64,000 nucleotides of DNA from Butyricicoccus faecihominis (lineage in GTDB: Bacteria; Bacillota; Clostridia; Oscillospirales; Butyricicoccaceae), in assembly GCF_024462775.1 (NCBI RefSeq), contig NZ_JANGCE010000008.1, positions 1 through 64,000 on the forward strand, read 5' to 3'. Within the stretch, counting starts at the first letter, position 1; each line of letters begins with the position of its first letter. The translations under genes were made by a program, and so were the position numbers. Under the pieces are notes generated by a model. The model saw only the letters and a program-made list of their open reading frames with translations. It did not search any database and had not been told where the DNA came from. Positions 249 through 62,512 of the stretch are shown here, in pieces.

Positions 249-1241
249 TTAAAAGGTTTTGCCGTATACCATCTGACTATACTCGTCCACATTGTCGGCG
301 GTGACGAGTTCAAACGGCGAGATGATGCGCTTTTCCTTGATTTCATCTCCATTAAAGATTTTTTCAAGCATAAGGATGGCGTTTTCCGCTTGCACAATGC
401 CGTTATACAGCATCGAGCCGGTCATTTCGCCGTCCTTGATGGCCTGCATACCGTCCTCGGTGGCGTCGACGCCGCATATGACGACGCCTTCCAAACGGTT
501 TGCGGCTTTCATGGCCTGAATCGCGCCCAGCGCCATCTGATCGTTCGCGGATACCACGCCGTCGATTTGCGGATATGCCTGCAGCCAGTCCTGCATGATT
601 TTCATGCCTTCCTCACGCTCAAAATTGCCGCTTAGTTCAGCCAGTACCTCCACGTCGTCCCGGTCAAAGTTCTCGAAAAAACCTTGATGACGCAGCGTGG
701 AGTGATTCAGGCCGGGCGTGCCGGCGAGATAAACGATTTTTGCGTTTTCAGGCAGCGCTTCGTTGAAAAATTCCGCTTCCGCTTGACCGCATTGGTAGTT
801 GTCCGAGCCGATATAAATAAAATCGCCGCCCGCCGCATCGCAAATCAGGCAGATAACAGGAATGCCCGCCTCGTTTGCGGCTTCGATACCGGGGACAATG
901 GCTTCATAGTCCACTGCTTCGATCACAATCGCGTCTACTTCGGAGGCGATAAAGGTATCGACCTGCTGGATCTGCTTAAAGGTATCCAAGTTGGCGTCGG
1001 CCGTTGTGACGGACCAGCCCTTTTCGCCCGCTTGCTGGACAAATTGATCCATCGTATACTTGCAAAAAACATCGGTATCCGCCATATTGGTAAAGCCGAT
1101 GGTGTAGCCGCCGGTCTTTTCTTCGCCGCCTGCCGCGCCGTCGCTCTCGGCGGCGCTGTCGCCGCCGCAGCCGCTGACCATTGCCATCATGATGGCGCCT
1201 GCTAACAGTACTGCAATTCGCTTCCGCATGGTCTTTTTCAT
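249..1241 (-). CDS. CUT2 sugar ABC transporter substrate-binding lipoprotein (RbsB-like)
   Basis: A 330-residue lipoprotein that captures a sugar outside the cell for the adjacent permease and ATPase. The N-terminus is a type II signal peptide with a lipobox ending in VSGC (Cys25). It is followed by a periplasmic-binding-protein type I fold (Peripla_BP_4): TIGFTNMADTDVF at the start of the mature domain, and a hinge-region VDATEDGMQAIKDGEM segment near residue 240. A GGAGGAG site lies 6 bases before the ATG. It is third in the operon ATPase-permease-binding protein. Its relative at 59015-59974 has the same layout (TVGYANLADSDVN), so the two are paralogues with probably related but different ligands. 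The sugar is not predictable from what I can see. Confidence 0.9.
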   Translation of the reverse strand: MKKTMRKRIAVLLAGAIMMAMVSGCGGDSAAESDGAAGGEEKTGGYTIGFTNMADTDVFCKYTMDQFVQQAGEKGWSVTTADANLDTFKQIQQVDTFIASEVDAIVIEAVDYEAIVPGIEAANEAGIPVICLICDAAGGDFIYIGSDNYQCGQAEAEFFNEALPENAKIVYLAGTPGLNHSTLRHQGFFENFDRDDVEVLAELSGNFEREEGMKIMQDWLQAYPQIDGVVSANDQMALGAIQAMKAANRLEGVVICGVDATEDGMQAIKDGEMTGSMLYNGIVQAENAILMLEKIFNGDEIKEKRIISPFELVTADNVDEYSQMVYGKTF

Positions 1242-1278
1242 TTTTTCTCCTCCTCATGGATGAATCCGGTGCTTCTTT

Positions 1279-2259
1279 TTACTTCTTTTTACGCATGACC
1301 AGAGATTTGCTTTTGATATCCATAATAACCGCCAAAGCGATAATCAGGCCACGAACAATCTGCTGCCAGTAGGAAGAAACGGATTTGAGGTTCATAATGT
1401 TATCCAGCACGCCGACGATCAGACAGCCGACGAGCGTGCCTTGCACGCTGCCAAGCCCGCCCGTAAAGCTGGTCCCGCCCACGATGGCCGCCGTGATAGC
1501 GTCCATCTCGTAATTTAAAGCGCCTGCGGGCTGGCCGGAATTGATGTACGACATCAATACGATGCCGGCTGTCGCGGTCAGGATGCCCATGATAAAATAG
1601 GTAAGGGTGACCGTTTTGCGCACACTGATGCCGGAGGCGATCGCCGCTTGTTCATTGCCGCCGCAGGCATAAATGTGGCGGCCGAAACGCAGCCGGTTCA
1701 GCAGCAGCCAACAGCATGCAAACGCAAGAATCATGATAACGACCGGCATGGGGAGCGTGCCGAAGAGCGAGCCTTGGCCAATGAACCGAAAAGCGTCGCC
1801 CATACCGGATACCGGCACGGCGTTGGTCAGAAGCAGCACCGCGCCGCGCGCGACCTGCATGGTAGCAAGCGTGATAATGAACGCTGGGATTTGGAAATAC
1901 GAAATGACAAAGCCGTTGATAATGCCGCAAATACCGCCGATTAAAACGCCGGCGGCAATGCCGAAGAACAGGTTTCCGGTCTGGCTGACGACCATGCAGG
2001 CGATACAACCGCAAAGCGCCATCACAGAACCGACCGACAGATCGATTTTGCCGAGAATCAGCACCATGGTCTGGCCAAAGGCCACAAGCGCCACGATGGA
2101 CATGCTTTTAATGACGTTCGTGAGATTGCGCGGCGTTAAAAACGCGGGGCTGGCAACAGCGGAAATTACAACAAGCGCCAGTAAAATAAAAAACATACCG
2201 TATTTTAAGTATAGGGCTGCAAAAGAAAAACTGCTTTTTTCAGGTTTGTTTTTGCCCAT
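1279..2259 (-). CDS. CUT2 sugar ABC transporter permease (RbsC-like)
   Basis: A 326-residue integral membrane protein with about eight to ten hydrophobic segments, the usual size for RbsC/AraH-type permeases (BPD_transp_2). Diagnostic stretches include GKIDLSVGSVMALCG near residue 75 and YEMDAITAAIVGGTSFTGG near residue 250, the conserved cytoplasmic loop that contacts the ATPase. AGGGAGTGAG lies 6 bases ahead of the ATG. The gene follows the ATPase stop by 6 bases, so the two are translated as a unit. The CUT2 system normally uses one permease gene as a homodimer and one double ATPase, as seen here. Confidence 0.9.
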   Translation of the reverse strand: MGKNKPEKSSFSFAALYLKYGMFFILLALVVISAVASPAFLTPRNLTNVIKSMSIVALVAFGQTMVLILGKIDLSVGSVMALCGCIACMVVSQTGNLFFGIAAGVLIGGICGIINGFVISYFQIPAFIITLATMQVARGAVLLLTNAVPVSGMGDAFRFIGQGSLFGTLPMPVVIMILAFACCWLLLNRLRFGRHIYACGGNEQAAIASGISVRKTVTLTYFIMGILTATAGIVLMSYINSGQPAGALNYEMDAITAAIVGGTSFTGGLGSVQGTLVGCLIVGVLDNIMNLKSVSSYWQQIVRGLIIALAVIMDIKSKSLVMRKKK

Positions 2260-2265
2260 AGTTGC

Positions 2266-3780
2266 TCACTCCCTGTATCCTTCATTCATGACCGCGTATT
2301 TCATGATTTTTTCCTGCGTCGCTTCGCTGCGGCTGAGCTCGCCCGTGATCTTGCCCTCGTGCATGACCAGCACGCGGTCGCTCATGCCCAGAATTTCGGG
2401 CAGTTCGGAGGAAATCATCAAAATAGCAAGGCCCTTGCCGGCGAGCTCACACATCATCCGATGGATCTCCGCCTTGGCGCCGACATCGATGCCGCGCGTC
2501 GGCTCGTCCAGAATAAGCAGTTGCAAATCGCGCATCAGCCACTTGGCGAGCACCACCTTTTGCTGATTGCCGCCCGATAGGCTGGAAACGACGTTTTCGG
2601 CGGAAGAGATTTTGATCAGCAGACGCTCGACCATTTGGCGCACCCTGCTCTTTTCCTTTTCCAAATTCAAAAAGCCGCCGGACTCTATCTGCTCTAAGGC
2701 GGCCAAGGAGACATTTTCCCGGATCGGGCGGCAAAGCACCAAGCCTATCTCCTTGCGGTCTTCGGGCACGTAAGCGATACCCGCCGCGATCGCGTTTCGT
2801 GTATTGCGTATGACCAACGGTTTGCCGTTCATAAATATTTCGCCCGTATCAAATTTGTCCAGTCCAAAGATGGCGCGTGAGACCTCTGTGCGGCCCGCGC
2901 CGACCAGACCGGATAAACCAAGGATCTCGCCTTTTCGCAGAGAAAAGCTGATATTTTCAAATACACCCTTGCTGGTCAGTCCTCGCACCTCGAAAACGGT
3001 TTCGCCGATCGGCACCTCGAATTTTGGGAATACATCTTTAATCTCGCGGCCCACCATCTGATTGATCAGCGATTCCATGGTGAAGCTTTCCCGCGGCGCG
3101 CTTTCGATCATCACACCGTCTCGCAGCACGGTGATATCGTCCGCGAGCGCAAAAATCTCGTCCATTTTATGCGTGATATAGATCACCGCGACATTTTTTG
3201 CTTTTAAATCTTCGATTTGGCGGAAAAGGATGGCTACCTCGTCGTCGGTCAATGCGGAAGTGGGTTCGTCCATGATAACGACCGAAGCGTTTCTAGAGAT
3301 CGCTTTCGCGATCTCGATCAGTTGTTTGCCGGCTAGGCTGAGCTCGCCCATCGTCGTATGCGGGTCGTAAGCGATATCCATTTTAGTTAAGATGTTTTGC
3401 GTATCCTGATACATCTTTTTAAAATGAACAAATTTTCCGCCCGGTCCGACGCATGGCTCGCGGCCAAGAAAAATATTTTCGGCAATGGTCATGTATGGCT
3501 CCGGGTTTAGCTCTTGATGGATCATGGAGATGCCGAGTTCCAGACTCTTTTGCGGCGTCAGATCGGATATTTCCGCGCCTTTGTACCAAATTCGGCCTGC
3601 ATCCGGCGCGTGCAGACCTGAAATGATCTTCATGAGCGTCGACTTGCCGGCGCCATTTTCGCCCACCAAAGCATGAACGGTACCGGTGTGCAGTTCAATA
3701 TTGACTCCTTCGAGGACAGGCACGCCGGAAAAGCTTTTTTTAATATTTTCTAATTTGAGTATGCAGCTGTGGTCTCCCAT
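2266..3780 (-). CDS. CUT2 sugar ABC transporter double ATPase (RbsA-like)
   Basis: A 504-residue protein with two ABC cassettes in tandem, as in RbsA/MglA. Cassette 1 has Walker A GENGAGKS near residue 40 and Walker B VVIMDEPTSAL. Cassette 2 has a degenerate Walker A (GLVGAGRTE), a good signature LSGGNQQKV and Walker B LLILDEPTRGID. One degenerate site is normal for this family. The ATG at 3780 is chosen because GGAGGTGG sits 5 bases upstream; the open frame extends further upstream without a better site. It is first in the operon and is read from the consensus promoter at 3909-3937. Confidence 0.92.
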   Translation of the reverse strand: MGDHSCILKLENIKKSFSGVPVLEGVNIELHTGTVHALVGENGAGKSTLMKIISGLHAPDAGRIWYKGAEISDLTPQKSLELGISMIHQELNPEPYMTIAENIFLGREPCVGPGGKFVHFKKMYQDTQNILTKMDIAYDPHTTMGELSLAGKQLIEIAKAISRNASVVIMDEPTSALTDDEVAILFRQIEDLKAKNVAVIYITHKMDEIFALADDITVLRDGVMIESAPRESFTMESLINQMVGREIKDVFPKFEVPIGETVFEVRGLTSKGVFENISFSLRKGEILGLSGLVGAGRTEVSRAIFGLDKFDTGEIFMNGKPLVIRNTRNAIAAGIAYVPEDRKEIGLVLCRPIRENVSLAALEQIESGGFLNLEKEKSRVRQMVERLLIKISSAENVVSSLSGGNQQKVVLAKWLMRDLQLLILDEPTRGIDVGAKAEIHRMMCELAGKGLAILMISSELPEILGMSDRVLVMHEGKITGELSRSEATQEKIMKYAVMNEGYRE

Positions 3781-5227: not shown

Positions 5228-5260
5228 CCGGTCGGGCGTACAAAGCGCCAAACATAAAAA

Positions 5261-5292
5261 GACCCCGTATCAACTTGTGTTGATACGGGGTC
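5261..5292 (+). terminator. Terminator hairpin, distal duplicate flanking repeat copy 1
   Basis: The arms GACCCCGTATCAA and TTGATACGGGGTC form a perfect 13-bp stem. It follows the regulator stop codon by 33 bases and has an A run before it, so on the minus strand it has the U tail of an intrinsic terminator. A near copy lies at 5509-5540 on the other side of the repeat element. Confidence 0.75.
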
Positions 5293-5508
5293 TCAGCGTG
5301 TCAAAGAATCCCTCGCGCCGCAGCGCATATAAAATAGGATTTTGCCGCAAGCGGCAAAATCCATAAAATCCGGGAGCATGTATCTCGGATTTTATACAAA
5401 CCGACTTCAAGTGTGCCTGTAAGGCGCGCGCAGAAGCCGGAATTCTCGATCGAAATGGGGCTTTGTTTCGATCGACAGGCTGTCAAAACTTGTATTTTGA
5501 CAGCCTGA
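5293..5508 (-). repeat. Terminator-flanked structured element, copy 1
   Basis: A 216-bp copy of the window's main repeat family, in minus orientation. Its ends are TCAGCGTGTCAAA and the complement of TCAGGCTGTCAAA, an 11/13 terminal inverted repeat. Read on the minus strand it contains a left hairpin with arms CAGGCTGTCAAAA/TTTTGACAGCCTG, a second with arms TCGATCGAAA/TTTCGATCGA, a third with arms ATAAAATCCG/CGGATTTTAT and a fourth around GCCGCTTGCGGC. It has no credible protein: the apparent 61-residue frame inside it is a by-product of the conserved DNA. Duplicate terminator hairpins flank it at 5261-5292 and 5509-5540. I do not recognise the family. Confidence 0.9.
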
Positions 5509-5540
5509 GATCCCGCATCAACTTGTGTTGATACGGGATC
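5509..5540 (-). terminator. Terminator hairpin of the cyclophilin gene, proximal duplicate
   Basis: Same 32-base hairpin as 5261-5292 with three changes. Two of them exchange a C-G pair for a T-A pair in the stem (arms GATCCC/GGGATC against GACCCC/GGGGTC), so pairing is kept. It lies 18 bases past the cyclophilin stop on that gene's strand. Confidence 0.75.
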
Positions 5541-5558
5541 TTTTTGTTTTGCTTACGG

Positions 5559-10071: not shown

Positions 10072-10950
10072 ATGCTGGATTTTCGTGTCGATACATTTTT
10101 GGCGGTATGCCGCTGCCAGAGCTTTACCAAAGCGGCGGAGGAGCTGCACATCACGCAACCCGCGGTCTCGCAGCATATCCATTGGCTGGAGAGCGCGTAC
10201 GGCGCGCGCTTTTTTGCGTGGCAGGGCAAACGGATGGAGCTGACCGAGGCCGGCCGCCTATTCCTGCGCGCCGCGACCACCATGCGGGACGACGCGCTGC
10301 ACCTGAAGATGGAGCTTGGATCGCTCGCGGACCGGGGGCGGCGGCTAACGTTCGGCGCGACGCTGACGGTGGGCGAATATGTGATGCCCCGCGCGCTGGC
10401 CCGCCTGCTTGAGCGGGAACCCGGCGCGGAAGTGCGTATGCAAGTCGCCAACACAGCGGAGCTGCTGCAAAAGCTGGACAATGGCGAGATCGACTTTGCC
10501 ATTGTCGAAGGCTTTTTTGAAAAAAACGAGTACGATCATCTGCCCTACCGCACCGAGCGCTTTGTACCGGTCGCGTCGCCGGGGTTTGTCTTTCAAAAGC
10601 CGGTGCGCGAGCTGGGCGATCTGCTCGGCGAGCGCCTGCTCACGCGCGAGCTGGGCTCGGGCACGCGTGAAACGCTGGAGCGCCGCCTGCGTGAAAGCAA
10701 CTTGACCGTGGCGGATTTTCGCCGTGTGGCGGAGATCGGCAGTTTAAACGCGATCAAAACATTGGTTCGCGCGGGCTGCGGCGTTTCCTTCCTGTATGAG
10801 CCGACCGTACACGGCGAACTACAAACGGGCGAGATATGCGAAATACCGCTTGCGGATTTTTCGGTCACACACGATTTTACCTTTCTGTGGCGCAAAAACA
10901 GCGCGTTTGCGGACGAGCACCGCGCGGCGTACGCGCTGCTTCAGGAATAA
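10072..10950 (+). CDS. LysR-family transcriptional regulator of the yeiH-like operon
   Basis: A 292-residue regulator of normal family length. The N-terminal helix-turn-helix covers about residues 3-60 (FLAVCRCQSFTKAAEELHIT, QPAVSQHIHWLE). The effector domain (PBP2 fold) follows from about residue 90 (LTFGATLTVGEYVMP) to the C-terminus. GAGGAGGATGGAG precedes the ATG. It is divergent from yeiH; the shared region holds a LysR-type palindrome. By context it is YeiE-like and may sense sulfite or a related anion. It ends directly at the first of two duplicated terminator hairpins. Confidence 0.88.
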   Translation: MLDFRVDTFLAVCRCQSFTKAAEELHITQPAVSQHIHWLESAYGARFFAWQGKRMELTEAGRLFLRAATTMRDDALHLKMELGSLADRGRRLTFGATLTVGEYVMPRALARLLEREPGAEVRMQVANTAELLQKLDNGEIDFAIVEGFFEKNEYDHLPYRTERFVPVASPGFVFQKPVRELGDLLGERLLTRELGSGTRETLERRLRESNLTVADFRRVAEIGSLNAIKTLVRAGCGVSFLYEPTVHGELQTGEICEIPLADFSVTHDFTFLWRKNSAFADEHRAAYALLQE

Positions 10951-10954
10951 AAAA

Positions 10955-10982
10955 GCAGCGGCCGGTAAAAACCGGCCGCCGC
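10955..10982 (+). terminator. LysR-gene terminator hairpin, proximal duplicate
   Basis: A hairpin with arms GCAGCGGCCGG and CCGGCCGCCGC starts 4 bases past the LysR stop codon. An almost identical hairpin is repeated at 11200-11229 after the inserted element. Confidence 0.75.
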
Positions 10983-11199
10983 ACAGACTGTCAAAAAAGT
11001 ATTTTTGACAGTCTGTCGATCGAAACAAAGCCCCATTTCGATCGAGAATTCCGGCTTCTGCGCGCGCCTTACAGGCACACTTGAAGTCGGTTTGTATAAA
11101 AACCGAGATACATGCTCCCGGTTTTTATGAATTTTGCCGCAAGCGGCAAAATCCTATTTTATGCGCGCTGCGGCGCGAGAGGGTTCTTTGACAAGCTGA
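10983..11199 (+). repeat. Terminator-flanked structured element, copy 2
   Basis: A 217-bp copy in plus orientation. The left end has a hairpin with arms CAGACTGTCAAAA/TTTTGACAGTCTG, next comes TCGATCGAAA/TTTCGATCGA, then a central stretch to GTCGGTTTGTATAAAA identical in all three copies. A stem ATAAAAACCG/CGGTTTTTAT and the hairpin ATTTTGCCGC-AA-GCGGCAAAAT follow. The right end is GGTTCTTTGACAAGCTGA, inversely related to the left end. Compared with copy 1 the third stem changes on both arms (TCCG/CGGA to ACCG/CGGT), keeping pairing. No protein is credible. Confidence 0.92.
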
Positions 11200-11229
11200 G
11201 CAGCGGCCGGTAAAAAAAACGGCCGCCGC
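11200..11229 (+). terminator. LysR-gene terminator hairpin, distal duplicate
   Basis: Arms GCAGCGGCCG and CGGCCGCCGC with an A-rich loop, 3 bases longer in the loop than the proximal copy at 10955-10982. It abuts the right end of repeat copy 2. Confidence 0.7.
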
Positions 11230-11289
11230 AGAGTTTGTAAAAATGCTTTTTTCTTTATTCTATCGAAAAAAGGCCTCATCTCAATCGAG
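11230..11289 (+). repeat. Degenerate left-end remnant of the same element family
   Basis: The 60 bases after the distal hairpin align along their length with the left end of the element, including CAGA near the start, an A/T stem region, TATCGAAAAAAGGCC for TCGATCGAAACAAAGCC, and CTCAATCGAG for TTTCGATCGAG. I judge about 70% identity by eye. It stops where the invariant core should continue, so it is an old truncated copy placed after copy 2. Confidence 0.65.
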
Positions 11290-11317: not shown

Positions 11318-12298
11318 TCAGGCGGTCGGCTCGCCGGTCTCCGCGCGGTAGACGGCAATAGCGATGGCTAGATCCAGCACACAGGAGCCCACGCTCTCGT
11401 ACATGGTGATCTCAGCATGGTCAGAGCGGCCGGGGAGCTTGCCTGCCAGCAGATCCCCCACGCTGCCGCGCACCTTGTCGCGGGTGATCAGGCCCTTTTC
11501 AAAGGGGATCAGGATATCGCCCGCGGCGGCCCACAGGCCGTCCACATGCTCGGTGACGACGAAGCTCGCCTTTTGGACCGCTTCCTCCGCAATCTCCTGC
11601 ATGAAGGGCGTAAAGGAGCCGATGGCGTTGAGATGCGTTCCGGGTTGAAGCGCGTCCGCGTCAAAGACCGGCTTGCGGGAAGGGGTCACGGTGCTGACGA
11701 TGTCGGAGCCGGCCACGCACTCGTTGCCGCTGCCGCATGGGATGATTTGGTAGGGGCGGTTCTGCACCGCGGCGATTCGCGAAGCGAAGGCGTCCATCCG
11801 GTCCGCGGCCATGTCGAATACGCGGAGTTCCTCCAGCTCCCGAACTTCCTGAATGGCCAGCACTTGGGTAAACGCCTGCGTCCCTGTGCCGACGATCCCC
11901 AAATGGCGGGCATCCTTTCTGGCCAGCAGATCGGTGGCCACGCCAGCGCCAGCGCCCGTCTTCAGAGCGGTGAGGTGGTTTGCGCCGATGAGCGCCAGCT
12001 GCTCGCCGTTGATTGCGGAGAAGAGGCTGATGGTGGACTGGTCGGTGGGCATCCCGTGCTTGGGATTGTCCGGAAAGACAGCGGAGAACTTGAAGCCGAA
12101 GAAGGGCTGCTCCGTGCAGACGGCCGTCAGCCATTGGCCGGAGCTCTCCCCCCGGCCAAGGGGCATGGCGATGCGGCCGCCGGGGTACATCTCGCCCTTG
12201 CCGCAGGCAAGGTGGGCATCCCGCACGGTGGCTAGCGCCGTCTTCATATCAATGGCAGCCGCCGCTTTTTCTTCCGGGATGACAATCATATGCTTCAT
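11318..12298 (-). CDS. Ornithine cyclodeaminase/mu-crystallin family reductase, probable delta1-pyrroline-2-carboxylate reductase
   Basis: A 326-residue soluble enzyme of the OCD/mu-crystallin family. It has the Rossmann NAD(P) site LGIVGTGTQAFTQVLAI near residue 130 and the family stretch LTALKTGAGAGVATDLLA before it. The aconitase-X genes just upstream give the likely pathway: dehydration of cis-3-hydroxy-L-proline yields delta1-pyrroline-2-carboxylate, which this enzyme would reduce to L-proline. That pairing is known for AcnX-type proline systems. Cyclodeaminase activity on ornithine is the alternative. AGAAAGGA lies 9 bases before the ATG. It is last in the operon. Confidence 0.85.
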   Translation of the reverse strand: MKHMIVIPEEKAAAAIDMKTALATVRDAHLACGKGEMYPGGRIAMPLGRGESSGQWLTAVCTEQPFFGFKFSAVFPDNPKHGMPTDQSTISLFSAINGEQLALIGANHLTALKTGAGAGVATDLLARKDARHLGIVGTGTQAFTQVLAIQEVRELEELRVFDMAADRMDAFASRIAAVQNRPYQIIPCGSGNECVAGSDIVSTVTPSRKPVFDADALQPGTHLNAIGSFTPFMQEIAEEAVQKASFVVTEHVDGLWAAAGDILIPFEKGLITRDKVRGSVGDLLAGKLPGRSDHAEITMYESVGSCVLDLAIAIAVYRAETGEPTA

Positions 12299-15462: not shown

Positions 15463-15486
15463 GCGCGAAGGTTCTTTGACAAGCTA
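15463..15486 (+). repeat. Right-end remnant of the terminator-flanked element
   Basis: The 24 bases after the regulator stop, GCGCGAAGGTTCTTTGACAAG then CTA, match the right end of copies 1-3 (GCGCGAGAGGGTTCTTTGACAAGCTGA in copy 2). The remainder of the element is absent. It directly abuts a terminator hairpin, as the right end always does. Confidence 0.75.
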
Positions 15487-15526
15487 AGGGCCCGTTGCAG
15501 AATAAAGCGATTCTGCAACGGGCCCT
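15487..15526 (+). terminator. Bidirectional intrinsic terminator between gntR and prfB
   Basis: Arms AGGGCCCGTTGCAGAA and TTCTGCAACGGGCCCT form a perfect 16-bp stem with an 8-base loop. It serves the convergent regulator and prfB genes and is the single terminator left beside the element remnant at 15463-15486. Confidence 0.8.
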
Positions 15527-39965: not shown

Positions 39966-39970
39966 CAAAA

Positions 39971-39996
39971 AAGCAGGCGCCGTTTGGCGCCTGCTT
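39971..39996. terminator. Terminator hairpin, distal duplicate flanking repeat copy 3
   Basis: Arms AAGCAGGCGCC and GGCGCCTGCTT with a 4-base loop. It nearly repeats the rny terminator at 40206-40239 and marks the outer border of the inserted element. Confidence 0.75.
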
Positions 39997-40205
39997 CAGA
40001 CTGTCAAAAAACAAGTTTTGACAGTCTGTCGATCGAAACAAAGCCCCATTTCGATCGAGAATTCCGGCTTCTGCGCGCGCCTTACAGGCACACTTGAAGT
40101 CGGTTTGTATAAAAACCGAGATACGTGCTCCCGGTTTTTATGAATTTTGCCACTTGCGGCAAAATCCTATTTTATGCGCGCTGCGGCGCGATGGGTTCTT
40201 TGACA
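39997..40205 (+). repeat. Terminator-flanked structured element, copy 3
   Basis: A 209-bp copy, plus orientation. The left hairpin has arms CAGACTGTCAAAA/TTTTGACAGTCTG; the central stretch from TCGATCGAAAC to GTATAAAA is identical to copies 1 and 2. The stem ATAAAAACCG/CGGTTTTTAT is kept, while one arm of the following hairpin reads GCCAC instead of GCCGC. The right end stops at TTTGACA followed directly by the flanking hairpin. It separates the second tetR promoter from the rny terminator. Confidence 0.92.
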
Positions 40206-40239
40206 CGAAAAGCAGGCGCTGTTTGGCGCCTGCTTTTCG
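40206..40239 (-). terminator. rny terminator, proximal duplicate
   Basis: Arms CGAAAAGCAGGCGC and GCGCCTGCTTTTCG form a perfect 14-bp stem 3 bases past the rny stop. Its core is repeated at 39971-39996 with one base change in the loop-proximal stem. Confidence 0.8.
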
Positions 40240-40242
40240 TGG

Positions 40243-59014: not shown

Positions 59015-59974
59015 TTATTGCAAATAGTCCTTTACATTTTCCTTTGTAATGGGTTCAAATGGAATGTAGGTATCCTCTACGGACTCGCCTTTAGCCAGCT
59101 TGCTTGCCATTTCGGCGCAGGCCTTGGCCTGTGCGTTTGCGTTCTGGTAGGCGCTCATCACCATTTCGCCTGCGTCGATCGCCTGCAGCGCGTCGTCCAC
59201 TGCGTCAACGCCGAGCACCATGACGCCGTCCAGCCGCCGCGCGCCCTTGAGCGCTTCGACGGCGCCCAAAGCCATCTGATCGTTTGCGCATACAATGGCG
59301 TCGAACTGATCGAAGCTTTGGATCCAGTCCTCCGCGATCTGCATGCCCTTGGCGCGGTCGTAGTTGCCGTCCTGCTCGGATAGGATCGTCACATCGGGCC
59401 GCTTTTCTCCCAGTAGATTCTTAAAACCGTTCATGCGCAGCGTAGTGTGGTTCATACCGAGTGTGCCGGACATATACAGGATGTTGGCGTTTTCCGGCAA
59501 GTTTTCAATGCAGTATTCGGCTTGCAGCCGGCCGGCCTCCTCGTCGTTGGAGCCGCAGTATAGGTAGTCGCCATCCGCGATTTTTGCGCGGAAAGCAATG
59601 AATGGGATAGCCGCGTCATTCGCGGCCTTCACCGCGGGCACGAGCGCTTCGTAGTCCAGCGGCAGGGCGATCACGACGTTGACCTTTTGCGCGACAAAGT
59701 TCTCAATATCCGCAATCTGCTTTTCAATCTGATTCTGCGCGTCGGATGCGAGCACCTCCATGCCGTCGTACTCCTTGGCGTATTCAAGGAAAAACTCTTT
59801 TGTCAAACGGCAGTTGACATCGGAATCGGCCAAGTTTGCATAGCCGACGGTATAGCCGCCGGTGTTTTCTTTTGGGGTATCGTCCGGCGTGTCCGCCGCG
59901 GGCGGCGTGGATGAGCAGGCGCCCAGAGAGAGGATGAGCGATAGCGTGGCGGCGATAACGGTGAGTCGTTTCAT
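59015..59974 (-). CDS. CUT2 sugar ABC transporter substrate-binding lipoprotein
   Basis: A 319-residue lipoprotein with lipobox LSLGAC (Cys about 20) and an RbsB-type fold: YTVGYANLADSDVNCRL at the mature start, NVVIALPLDYEALVPAVKAAN near residue 110 and LGVDAVDDALQAIDAGEMVM near residue 250. ATG 59974 follows GGAGGAA. It is the third gene after ATPase and permease. It parallels the protein at 249-1241 along its length, so the two operons share ancestry. Confidence 0.9.
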   Translation of the reverse strand: MKRLTVIAATLSLILSLGACSSTPPAADTPDDTPKENTGGYTVGYANLADSDVNCRLTKEFFLEYAKEYDGMEVLASDAQNQIEKQIADIENFVAQKVNVVIALPLDYEALVPAVKAANDAAIPFIAFRAKIADGDYLYCGSNDEEAGRLQAEYCIENLPENANILYMSGTLGMNHTTLRMNGFKNLLGEKRPDVTILSEQDGNYDRAKGMQIAEDWIQSFDQFDAIVCANDQMALGAVEALKGARRLDGVMVLGVDAVDDALQAIDAGEMVMSAYQNANAQAKACAEMASKLAKGESVEDTYIPFEPITKENVKDYLQ

Positions 59975-60022
59975 GGTTGTTTCCTCCATTTTTTTATTTT
60001 TCGCGCTTGCCGGCGCGGTTTT

Positions 60023-60991
60023 TCAAAACGATTTGCTCGTTGATTTTTTGCTTTTCACGTCAATGATAACCGCGATCAGGATGACCAGCCCCTTGACGAT
60101 CTGTTGATAGTACGCGGAAACGTTCTGCAAATTGAGCATATTGTTAATGATGCCGACGATCAGGCCGCCCGCGATGGTGCCGATAATGCTGCCGGAGCCG
60201 CCGCTGAGGCTGATGCCGCCGACCACGCAGGCCGTAATGCCGTCGAATTCATAGCCTACGCCGATGGCCGGCTGGCCGGAGTTGACGCGGGCCATCAGAA
60301 TGATGCCTGCAAGGCCTACAAAGCAGCCGTTGGTGAGATAGGATAGCATTTTTACCTTTTTCACATTGATGCCGGAGGCGATCGCGGCGCTTTCGTTGCC
60401 GCCAATCGCATAAATGTAGCGCCCAAGCGGCCGTCTGCTCATAATAAACCACGTAATGAAAAGGACGATGGCCAAAATGATGACGGGGATGGGGATCAAA
60501 CCGATATAGCCCTGCCCCAATACGGTCAGCCGGTCGAGATTTGAAATAGGAACGCCATTGGTGAATACCAGAGCAAGCCCGCGCGCGCTGGTTTGCACCG
60601 CCAAGGTAACGATAAACGCGGGAATACCATAGCGCGTCAGTACAAAACCGCTGAACAAGCCGCATAGGCCGCCGATCAGGATCGAGGCGAAAATGGCCAG
60701 AAGGACGCTGTTCGTCGTTACGAAGACCGAAGTGCCGATGCAGCCCGCCAGCGCAACGACCGAGCCGGGAGAAAGGTCAATATCGCCGCCGGTAATGACG
60801 AGCTGTTCGCCGCAGGCGATCAGCATGATGACGACGATCTGCCGCATGATGTTGGTGATGTTGGCTGGGGTAAGGAATTTACTGTTCAAAAGTGATGAAA
60901 CCACGATCATCAATAGCAAAATCAGATAAATACCGAATTTACGGAATATTTCTGTAAGCTTTGTTTTGGTTATCGTTGATGCTGCGCTCAT
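60023..60991 (-). CDS. CUT2 sugar ABC transporter permease
   Basis: A 322-residue membrane protein of the RbsC type. It has GGDIDLSPGSVVALAGCIG near residue 68 and YEFDGITACVVGGISLSGGSG near residue 235. These are the same conserved regions as in the permease at 1279-2259. It follows the ATPase by 27 bases and uses AGGG before its ATG. Confidence 0.9.
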   Translation of the reverse strand: MSAASTITKTKLTEIFRKFGIYLILLLMIVVSSLLNSKFLTPANITNIMRQIVVIMLIACGEQLVITGGDIDLSPGSVVALAGCIGTSVFVTTNSVLLAIFASILIGGLCGLFSGFVLTRYGIPAFIVTLAVQTSARGLALVFTNGVPISNLDRLTVLGQGYIGLIPIPVIILAIVLFITWFIMSRRPLGRYIYAIGGNESAAIASGINVKKVKMLSYLTNGCFVGLAGIILMARVNSGQPAIGVGYEFDGITACVVGGISLSGGSGSIIGTIAGGLIVGIINNMLNLQNVSAYYQQIVKGLVILIAVIIDVKSKKSTSKSF

Positions 60992-61018
60992 TTTTTTATC
61001 CCTCCACCTTCGTTGATA

Positions 61019-62512
61019 TCAGTCCCCAAGCGCCATTGTCATGATTTTTTCCTGACTTGCCTCTTCGCGCTGCAATTCCCCCTTCAGCTTTCCTTCGTGC
61101 ATGACCAAGATCCGGTCGCTCATCCCAAGCACCTCCGGAAGCTCGGAGGATATCATGATGATCGCCATGCCTTTCTTTGCCAACTGGCACATAATCTTGT
61201 GAATCTCGGATTTTGCGCCGACGTCGACGCCGCGCGTGGGTTCGTCTAGGATCAACACGTTGATATCGGAGATCAGCCATTTTCCAAGTACGATCTTTTG
61301 CTGGTTGCCGCCGCTGAGGGAGTCCGCGCGATTGTTTGCGTCGTTCGTTTTGATGCGCAGCATATCGATGATTTCTTGCGAGCGTTTTGTTTCCTCGCGT
61401 TCGCTGAGCGCGATACCGCGGACAAACTCTTGTAAAAAAGCAAGCGTGATATTCTTCTTGATGGACATTCCAAGCACTAGGCCGGACAGCTTTCGGTCCT
61501 CGGGGACCATGGCGATGCCGTGCTGGAGCGCGTCCTGCGGCACATGCACGGATATTGCGCGGCCGTCTAGAAAAAGCTTTCCTTCGCTTGCTTGGTCTAG
61601 CCCGAATATACAGCGCATGATCTCCGTGCGCCCTGAGCCGATCAGCCCGGCCACGCCAAGGATCTCGCCGTGCCGTACGGAAAAGCTGATATCCCGAAAC
61701 ACGCCTTTTCTGGAAAGACGCTCTACCCGAAGCGCCTCGCCCTTGATCTCCGCAAATTCCTTGGGGAAAATATCGGTGAGTTCTCGGCCGATCATCATCG
61801 ATACCACTTGGTTTTTATCAAGTGCCGACGCGGGGCTGCTGCCAATCCATTGTCCATCGCGCAATACTGTGACTTCATCCGCAATGCGGAACAATTCGTC
61901 AAGCTTATGCGTGATGTATATAACAGCCGCGCCGTTTTGTTTGAGCTGTTCGATGCATGCAAAAAGGGTATCGACCTCGTTCTCGGTAATGGCCGAGGTG
62001 GGCTCGTCCATGACAATGATCTTGGCATTGCAGGAAAGCGCTTTGCAGATCTCCACCAACTGCATGATCGATACGCTGATGTCGCCCATTCGCGTAGTGG
62101 GAGGGTATTTGATATTCATGCGCTGCATGTATTCCGCCGCTTTTTCGTACATGGTTTTATAATCGATGCCGCGGCCGTAGGACAAAAGAGGTTCGCGCCC
62201 CAAAAATATGTTTTCGGCTATGGAGAGATTGAGGACTGAGCTCAATTCCTGATGAATCATGGCCACGCCATGCGCCGCGGCCTTTTTGGGCGTAAGCGGG
62301 CCGACGTTGACCCCGTCGATCCAAATTTCCCCCTCGTCCGGTTGCATCAGGCCGTCAAGGATCTTCATCAGCGTGGATTTTCCGGCCCCGTTTTCGCCCA
62401 TCAAAGCATGCACGGTGCCGGGGCGTACCGCAAGATCGACCGATTGCAGCGCCTGTACGCCCGGAAAACCTTTTGTGATATTCTTCATCTCAAGCAAATA
62501 ACGATCCGACAA
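61019..62512 (-). CDS. CUT2 sugar ABC transporter double ATPase
   Basis: A 497-residue double ATPase. Cassette 1 has Walker A GENGAGKST near residue 40 and Walker B IIVMDEPTSAI. Cassette 2 has the degenerate GLIGSGRTEIM, a full signature LSGGNQQKIVLGKWL and Walker B VLILDEPTRGVD. It is the first gene of a seven-gene operon reaching to 55515 and is read from a perfect consensus promoter at 62573-62601. Confidence 0.92.
   Translation of the reverse strand: MSDRYLLEMKNITKGFPGVQALQSVDLAVRPGTVHALMGENGAGKSTLMKILDGLMQPDEGEIWIDGVNVGPLTPKKAAAHGVAMIHQELSSVLNLSIAENIFLGREPLLSYGRGIDYKTMYEKAAEYMQRMNIKYPPTTRMGDISVSIMQLVEICKALSCNAKIIVMDEPTSAITENEVDTLFACIEQLKQNGAAVIYITHKLDELFRIADEVTVLRDGQWIGSSPASALDKNQVVSMMIGRELTDIFPKEFAEIKGEALRVERLSRKGVFRDISFSVRHGEILGVAGLIGSGRTEIMRCIFGLDQASEGKLFLDGRAISVHVPQDALQHGIAMVPEDRKLSGLVLGMSIKKNITLAFLQEFVRGIALSEREETKRSQEIIDMLRIKTNDANNRADSLSGGNQQKIVLGKWLISDINVLILDEPTRGVDVGAKSEIHKIMCQLAKKGMAIIMISSELPEVLGMSDRILVMHEGKLKGELQREEASQEKIMTMALGD

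Follow-up and report, generated by a model that had tools for sequence, protein, structure and literature searches.

The closest described systems belong to the IS1182 family of insertion sequences. In Staphylococcus, the family members IS1272 and TnSha1 enter hairpins, often those of terminators, with little sequence preference, and the target hairpin is deleted or replaced with no target duplication, according to the available parts of the reports by Furi et al. (PMC4923244) and Wan et al. (PMC5678879). Siguier et al. 2015, as cited in the same two reports, noted that some IS1182 members target palindromes. Duplication of the whole stem-loop was drawn by Wan et al. as a hypothetical pathway b only (PMC5678879). 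Other family members, including ISPse1 (PMC3281130) and ISCaa15 (PMC3196728), are associated with 4-bp duplications, and the action of IS1182-type transposases is described as sometimes involving target duplication and sometimes not, and as guided by either sequence or structure (PMC12056078). Among nonautonomous elements, MITEPye1 of Paracoccus yeei is a MITE with IS1182-type ends, 4-bp direct repeats and one to three copies per chromosome (PMC11578231), while the SMR-A repeats of Haloquadratum enter palindromes that belong to other mobile elements and produce no target duplication (PMC3119063).

The window analyzed here, a stretch of 64,000 nucleotides from Butyricicoccus faecihominis (the source genome), carried three copies of a small element, 93 to 96% alike, each between two near-identical hairpins whose sequence was specific to the locus (Table 1). 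The preliminary description had recognized this plan at the first site and at two others; its element size of 217 bp was corrected to 215 bp by measurement. The element has the ends CAGnnTGTCAAA ... TTTGACAnnCTG, its longest stop-free stretch is 60 codons, and a search of the window against Rfam 15 at the gathering score returned no matches to a described RNA family. At site 1, a scan made on the empty allele placed the T-run of the hairpin on the minus strand. The flanking genes, LysR (10072-10950, plus strand) and an ornithine-cyclodeaminase-like gene (11318-12298, minus strand), are convergent, and given the strand of the T-run the hairpin reads as the terminator of the latter gene rather than of LysR, to which it had been assigned. 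At 15463-15526, elsewhere in the window, a hairpin is adjoined by a degraded right end of the element (GGTTCTTTGACAAGCTAAG), probably the remnant of an old insertion.

Table 1. Element copies and target hairpins in the window, with the corresponding state of strain G149
Feature	Coordinates	Strand	Remarks
MITE-like element, 215 bp (site 1)	10984..11198	+	ends CAGACTGTCAAAA / TTTGACAAGCTG; site in G149 without element
Left target-hairpin copy, site 1	10954..10983		terminator-like, T-run on minus strand; empty site has a single hairpin
Right target-hairpin copy, site 1	11199..11229
Probable remnant, decayed older left-end copy	11230..11289	+	empty allele has it too; 76.8% across 95 columns including the hairpin
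Element copy, site 2	5294..5507	-	G149 empty there, 34-bp overlap
Hairpin copy, site 2 (altered one)	5260..5293		compared with the G149 empty allele
Hairpin copy, site 2	5508..5541		same sequence as the empty allele
Element copy, site 3	39997..about 40207	+	right tip altered; G149 empty there
Left hairpin copy, site 3	39969..39996
Right hairpin copy, site 3	40208..40235		inner arm now matches outer flank

Short, devoid of a transposase gene, present in multiple copies, accompanied by a target duplication, polymorphic in its insertion, and sharing its ends with an autonomous-type IS1182 element (both the end consensus and the end on contig C9, below), the element has the features of a MITE. It has terminal inverted repeats and a target duplication, both absent from IS605-type PATEs and the IS200 group. 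REPs, unlike this hairpin-flanked element, are themselves the palindrome. A likeness to REP/BIME sequences and SMR-A is that all are short, noncoding, and palindrome-linked (PMC3119063). MITEPye1 shares with it the MITE character and IS1182-type ends, and its available description features no hairpin duplication (PMC11578231). IS1272 and TnSha1 are alike in targeting hairpins, but there the hairpin is deleted, whereas here it is duplicated whole; replacement of the IS1272 type does not describe our sites, where the hairpin was found twice in most occupied alleles and once in empty ones. The supposition that the family was undescribed holds only for this outcome, as the transposase family and its preference for hairpins are both described, in the available accounts with deletion and not duplication (PMC4923244, PMC5678879). 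What is new here is the duplication of the whole hairpin, whereas the IS1182 family and hairpin targeting were already known. No report of whole-hairpin duplication as an observed result was recognized in the literature searched, mostly titles and abstracts, with most subscription journals and the ISfinder pages outside the coverage. Because the IS1182 repeat lengths in ISfinder vary widely, the phenomenon may already have been noticed by some curators.

Across the source genome, at least 40 copies were found (the best 40 of 134 candidates scored), and addition of places from an end-pattern search brought the total to 50 loci at which one end or both could be resolved. Hairpins were counted at the 43 copies with both ends resolved, the seven further copies with one resolved end standing outside the count. 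The same locus-specific hairpin occurred on both sides of 31 of the 43, two of these with an inverted loop; the count becomes 30 of 42 if the mirror copies L009 and L010, which represent one locus, are counted once. The remaining 12 comprised six copies with the left hairpin only, three with the right only, two with different hairpins, and one with neither. At 3,000 random window positions, a palindrome scoring at least 7 adjoined one side in about 0.8% of cases and both sides in none, the element copies having been sorted with a cut of 6.5. Strain G149 held about 40 copies (the best 40 of 109 candidates scored), and 26 of the 30 fetched (30 loci of 44 matches) had the same hairpin on both sides. 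Element matches occurred in 22 of 149 genomes searched, namely the source genome, 20 of 23 other genus members, and one further member of the family, all counted by element match. Two loci, L039 (about 953-985) and L051 (about 943-974), bore minimal elements of about 33 bp, consisting of the two ends only, beside hairpins. A further family of short repeats, of the CTTCGTCACTACGTTCCTCAGAATGACA type, lay near or within the element copies at L037 and L060.

Empty alleles were provided by G149, a conspecific genome in one contig that was found by searching with the window region. All three window sites had one hairpin and no element in this strain. When these and 28 further source-genome sites were tried in G149, 20 of the 31 were empty, as were 13 of 21 G149 sites tried in the source genome; each empty site had one hairpin, and no empty allele with two was present among the 33 compared in both directions. 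The hairpin therefore belongs to the site and is duplicated around the element, as the preliminary description proposed when it asked for such orthologous sites. The overlap of the flanks at the empty site was 25 to 44 bp, equal to the length of the hairpin, in 28 of 31 alleles measured by script (those of L001 and L005 were read by eye); at the exceptions, L015 (6), L024 (-10), and L215 (11), part of a hairpin copy was gone from the occupied allele. Flank identity at the measured sites was 94.0 to 99.8% and both strains had private insertions, the high identity indicating that the insertions are recent. In a more distant congener, G012, the LysR gene was followed by a single, different hairpin, with no element in the 300 bases examined.

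The 28 further sites included two that were unmapped (L007, L016), four with a left-side match only (L027, L030, L052, L053), three occupied in both strains (L023, L028, L061), and two with another copy at the same hairpin (L004, L014). Nine sites already occupied in G149 were left out (L002, L008, L012, L021, L025, L029, L034, L035, L054), and L010, L033, L036, L037, L038, L039, L043, L045, L050, and L060 stood outside the empty-site test. In the reverse direction, five of the 21 G149 sites were unmapped (L192, L193, L203, L206, L217) and three held remnants in the source genome (L200, L204, L210); the remaining nine of the 30 G149 loci were those common to both strains. Copies without hairpin duplication, which had been named beforehand as a finding that would speak against the reading, do occur (12 of 43). 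In three of these one hairpin was lost later, as seen from the empty allele for L015 and L024 and from the sister copy L207, which has both hairpins, for L021; for the other nine, later change is the presumed explanation. At L014/L229 and L004/L224, one target hairpin carried an element in opposite orientation or another element variant between the strains, reflecting repeated hits or else inversion of the element between palindromic flanks.

The target duplication was the whole palindrome and measured 19 to 64 bp. The duplication itself had been anticipated, but its length proved greater and more variable than the 26 to 32 bases first given, and the alternative that the element copies itself by way of the hairpin is needless. 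Among 87 elements, made up of 43 small elements and 44 IS rows, 39 had an exact repeat reaching both tips. In all 28 rows with unambiguous tips (26 distinct loci), the duplication was centered on the palindrome with an offset of 0.0; the other 11 exact repeats had offsets of -2.0 to 1.5, the repeat being lengthened by chance matches at the tips. Of 115 rows, 36 combined an exact repeat with perfect CAG/CTG tips (L009 and L010 being counted separately); the first base of the repeat was A in 25 of them and the last was T in 31. By a simple rule, 24 of these 36 targets had a T-run on at least one side (13 with T to the right, 8 with A to the left, and 3 with both) and 12 had no clear T-run. A sequence-specific target was considered and rejected, the hairpins varying between sites.

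Hairpin loops were inverted between the two copies at the MITE loci L023, L054, and L217 and at the IS loci L063 (equal to L104) and L093. In the sister strain the loop was direct at L054 (compared with L221) and nearly direct at L023 (compared with L246), and at the empty sites L194/L262 and L211/L268 the loop was also inverted between strains, the inversions between strains being exact or almost so. That loop inversion marks the insertion step was rejected on both counts, and inversion of terminator loops looks like a general, recurrent habit of palindromes here. Hairpin copies adjoining elements in the window (40204-40241 and 5260-5293) also displayed arm corrections of the quasi-palindrome type, in the form of an inner arm matching the outer flank or of paired changes across both arms.

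A transposase with matching ends, which the preliminary description had suggested seeking, was found as a fragment. The source genome encodes a truncated IS1182-family transposase (G000 C9:3-371), contig C9 beginning inside the gene, and its product matches Pfam DDE_Tnp_1_6 and the IS1182 model NF033551. The match to NF033551 (91 bits over the last 95 positions) lies under the whole-protein cut-off because the fragment is truncated. The end of the C9 element, TGTGGTTCTTTGACAGTCTG, matches that of the small element and is directly followed by a hairpin (AAAGGCCGG...CCGGCCTTT); in G149, apparently the same site is occupied by the small element L217. No full-length IS1182 partner was seen in the source genome, where the sole transposase found is cut by the contig edge, and searches of the G149 genome found no IS1182 transposase. 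The copies in that strain, about 40, must accordingly have moved earlier or by another route.

In a scan of public genomes for relatives encoding such a transposase, the best 80 of 203 were mostly from Oscillospiraceae and other Clostridia; the related full-length ISs measured about 1.5 kb. Two full-length relatives scored above the NF033551 cut-off of 270 (371 bits for L088 and 389 bits for L080), placing them in the same family as ISPse1 and ISCaa15, which differ in the 4-bp duplications given in the available descriptions (PMC3281130, PMC3196728). D147, D276, and E403 were invariant in 23 aligned relatives and are, by our own assignment, the putative catalytic D, D, E. The ends of the small elements and ISs have a common asymmetry, with ...AAAAA on the left and ...AAnAACC on the right. 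A predicted fold of the transposase (AlphaFold2, mean pLDDT 75) had Tn5 transposase as its weak nearest match (TM about 0.32), which says little beyond its being a DDE enzyme, and a sequence search of PDB chains at E 0.01 gave no match.

Of 90 relative loci scanned (80 plus 10), 44 had both ends by end pattern, although for L076 and L082 (odd lengths of 1720 and 1406) the pattern may misplace the left end. Removal of duplicates (L104 = L063, L118 = L064, L127 = L066) and of short flanks (L066, L099, L125, L127) left 38 distinct insertions. The same palindrome lay on both sides of 25, two with an inverted loop, while nine had two different palindromes and four were one-sided. In CCNA10 (Clostridiales bacterium), the left hairpin of L078 differed from the right hairpin of L086 by a single base, and two different hairpins around one IS are best explained by recombination between copies. 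On plasmids, palindromic repeats were present in two of six ISs inspected (of 986 records): L249 of Enterococcus (43% protein identity, 22 bp) and L251 of Rhizobium (37%, 20 bp). None was seen in the other four, comprising the distant members L252 and L253 together with L250 and L254, the last two also having no matching right end in the stretch and therefore being of little weight.

Overall, these data are best explained by a MITE-like IS1182 element with structure-defined target duplication, a reading we hold with considerable confidence. The link to IS1182 is drawn because the ends match and a truncated partner gene is present in the source genome; judged from these sequences, an IS1182 DDE transposase would move the element in trans via the ends given above. 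Its target would be a palindrome of nearly any sequence, often a terminator-like hairpin. Since the duplication, although anywhere between 19 and 64 bp long, is centered on the palindrome, we infer that the transposase recognizes the extruded cruciform, in which the points of attack would be adjacent at the four-way junction for stems of any length. On each strand, joining would take place at the palindrome's 5' foot, and gap filling would then leave the hairpin complete on both sides of the element, the product and the empty sites being those observed. With the hairpin doubled, one terminator copy would stay intact, so the stop signal is probably kept after insertion, at what is likely to be little cost to the host. 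We also favor, with less assurance, a wider reading in which this IS1182 branch targets the extruded cruciform at its four-way junction so that DNA structure, rather than the enzyme, determines how long the duplication is. The hairpin would be duplicated by attack at its 5' feet, as here, and deleted by attack at its 3' feet, as for IS1272, with both outcomes in one family from Clostridia to Enterococcus and Rhizobium. Counting against the main reading, the same-hairpin plan is absent from 12 of 43 copies in the source genome, from 4 of the 30 G149 copies, and from 13 of the 38 distinct ISs, and the sister strain explains only three of the 12. To these are added the restriction of exact repeats to 39 of 87 elements, with off-center values among 11 of them, the searches of G149 that found no IS1182 transposase, the truncation of the one partner gene by a contig edge, and the four of six plasmid ISs in which no palindromic repeat was seen.

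The main rival is that the target is not a cruciform but a single-stranded hairpin, such as one in lagging-strand DNA, or one in the transcription bubble or R-loop of an active terminator. Group IIC introns use terminator hairpins as single-stranded-type targets and provide a parallel, and a T-run lies on at least one side of 24 of 36 exact targets. However, the product is a duplication of both strands, as from staggered cuts in a duplex, the elements occur in either orientation with respect to the T-run, and a third of the exact targets have no clear T-run, all of which leaves this explanation unlikely. Selection might also be thought to retain, from random insertions with long duplications, those at terminators, which are harmless places. 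It could not set the boundary to the base at both palindrome feet, as in the 28 centered rows, and some targets have no T-run, so we regard it as highly improbable.

Nor is the doubling readily ascribed to host repair, in which the hairpin, after an ordinary insertion next to it, would be copied through a template switch at the palindrome. The palindromes here do undergo template-switch-like loop inversions and arm corrections. Both strains, and ISs of other genera, nevertheless generally carry a complete hairpin on either side, and exact repeats are centered, a uniformity that chance products of repair would not show; we consider this repair route very unlikely, if slightly less so than retention by selection. 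That the element includes the hairpins, or that they were already doubled before insertion, would account for their presence at the ends of most copies. Their sequences are site-specific, however, and the single hairpin in every one of the 33 empty alleles rules out both versions with near certainty.

DDE transposons are expected to cut their target with a fixed spacing. The spacing here tracks the hairpin, which fits an enzyme that reads structure. The insertions supply many natural examples of a pathway that, in the available text of Wan et al., was drawn as a possibility only (PMC5678879). Doubling of the hairpin may explain the accumulation of such elements in gut Clostridia with terminators left unbroken. 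The insertions also serve as a record by which the extrusion of cruciforms in living cells becomes directly testable. Apart from the element, two stretches of the window of about 3 kb each (423-3351 and 59162-62089) were 65 to 82% similar piecewise and are probably paralogous gene sets.
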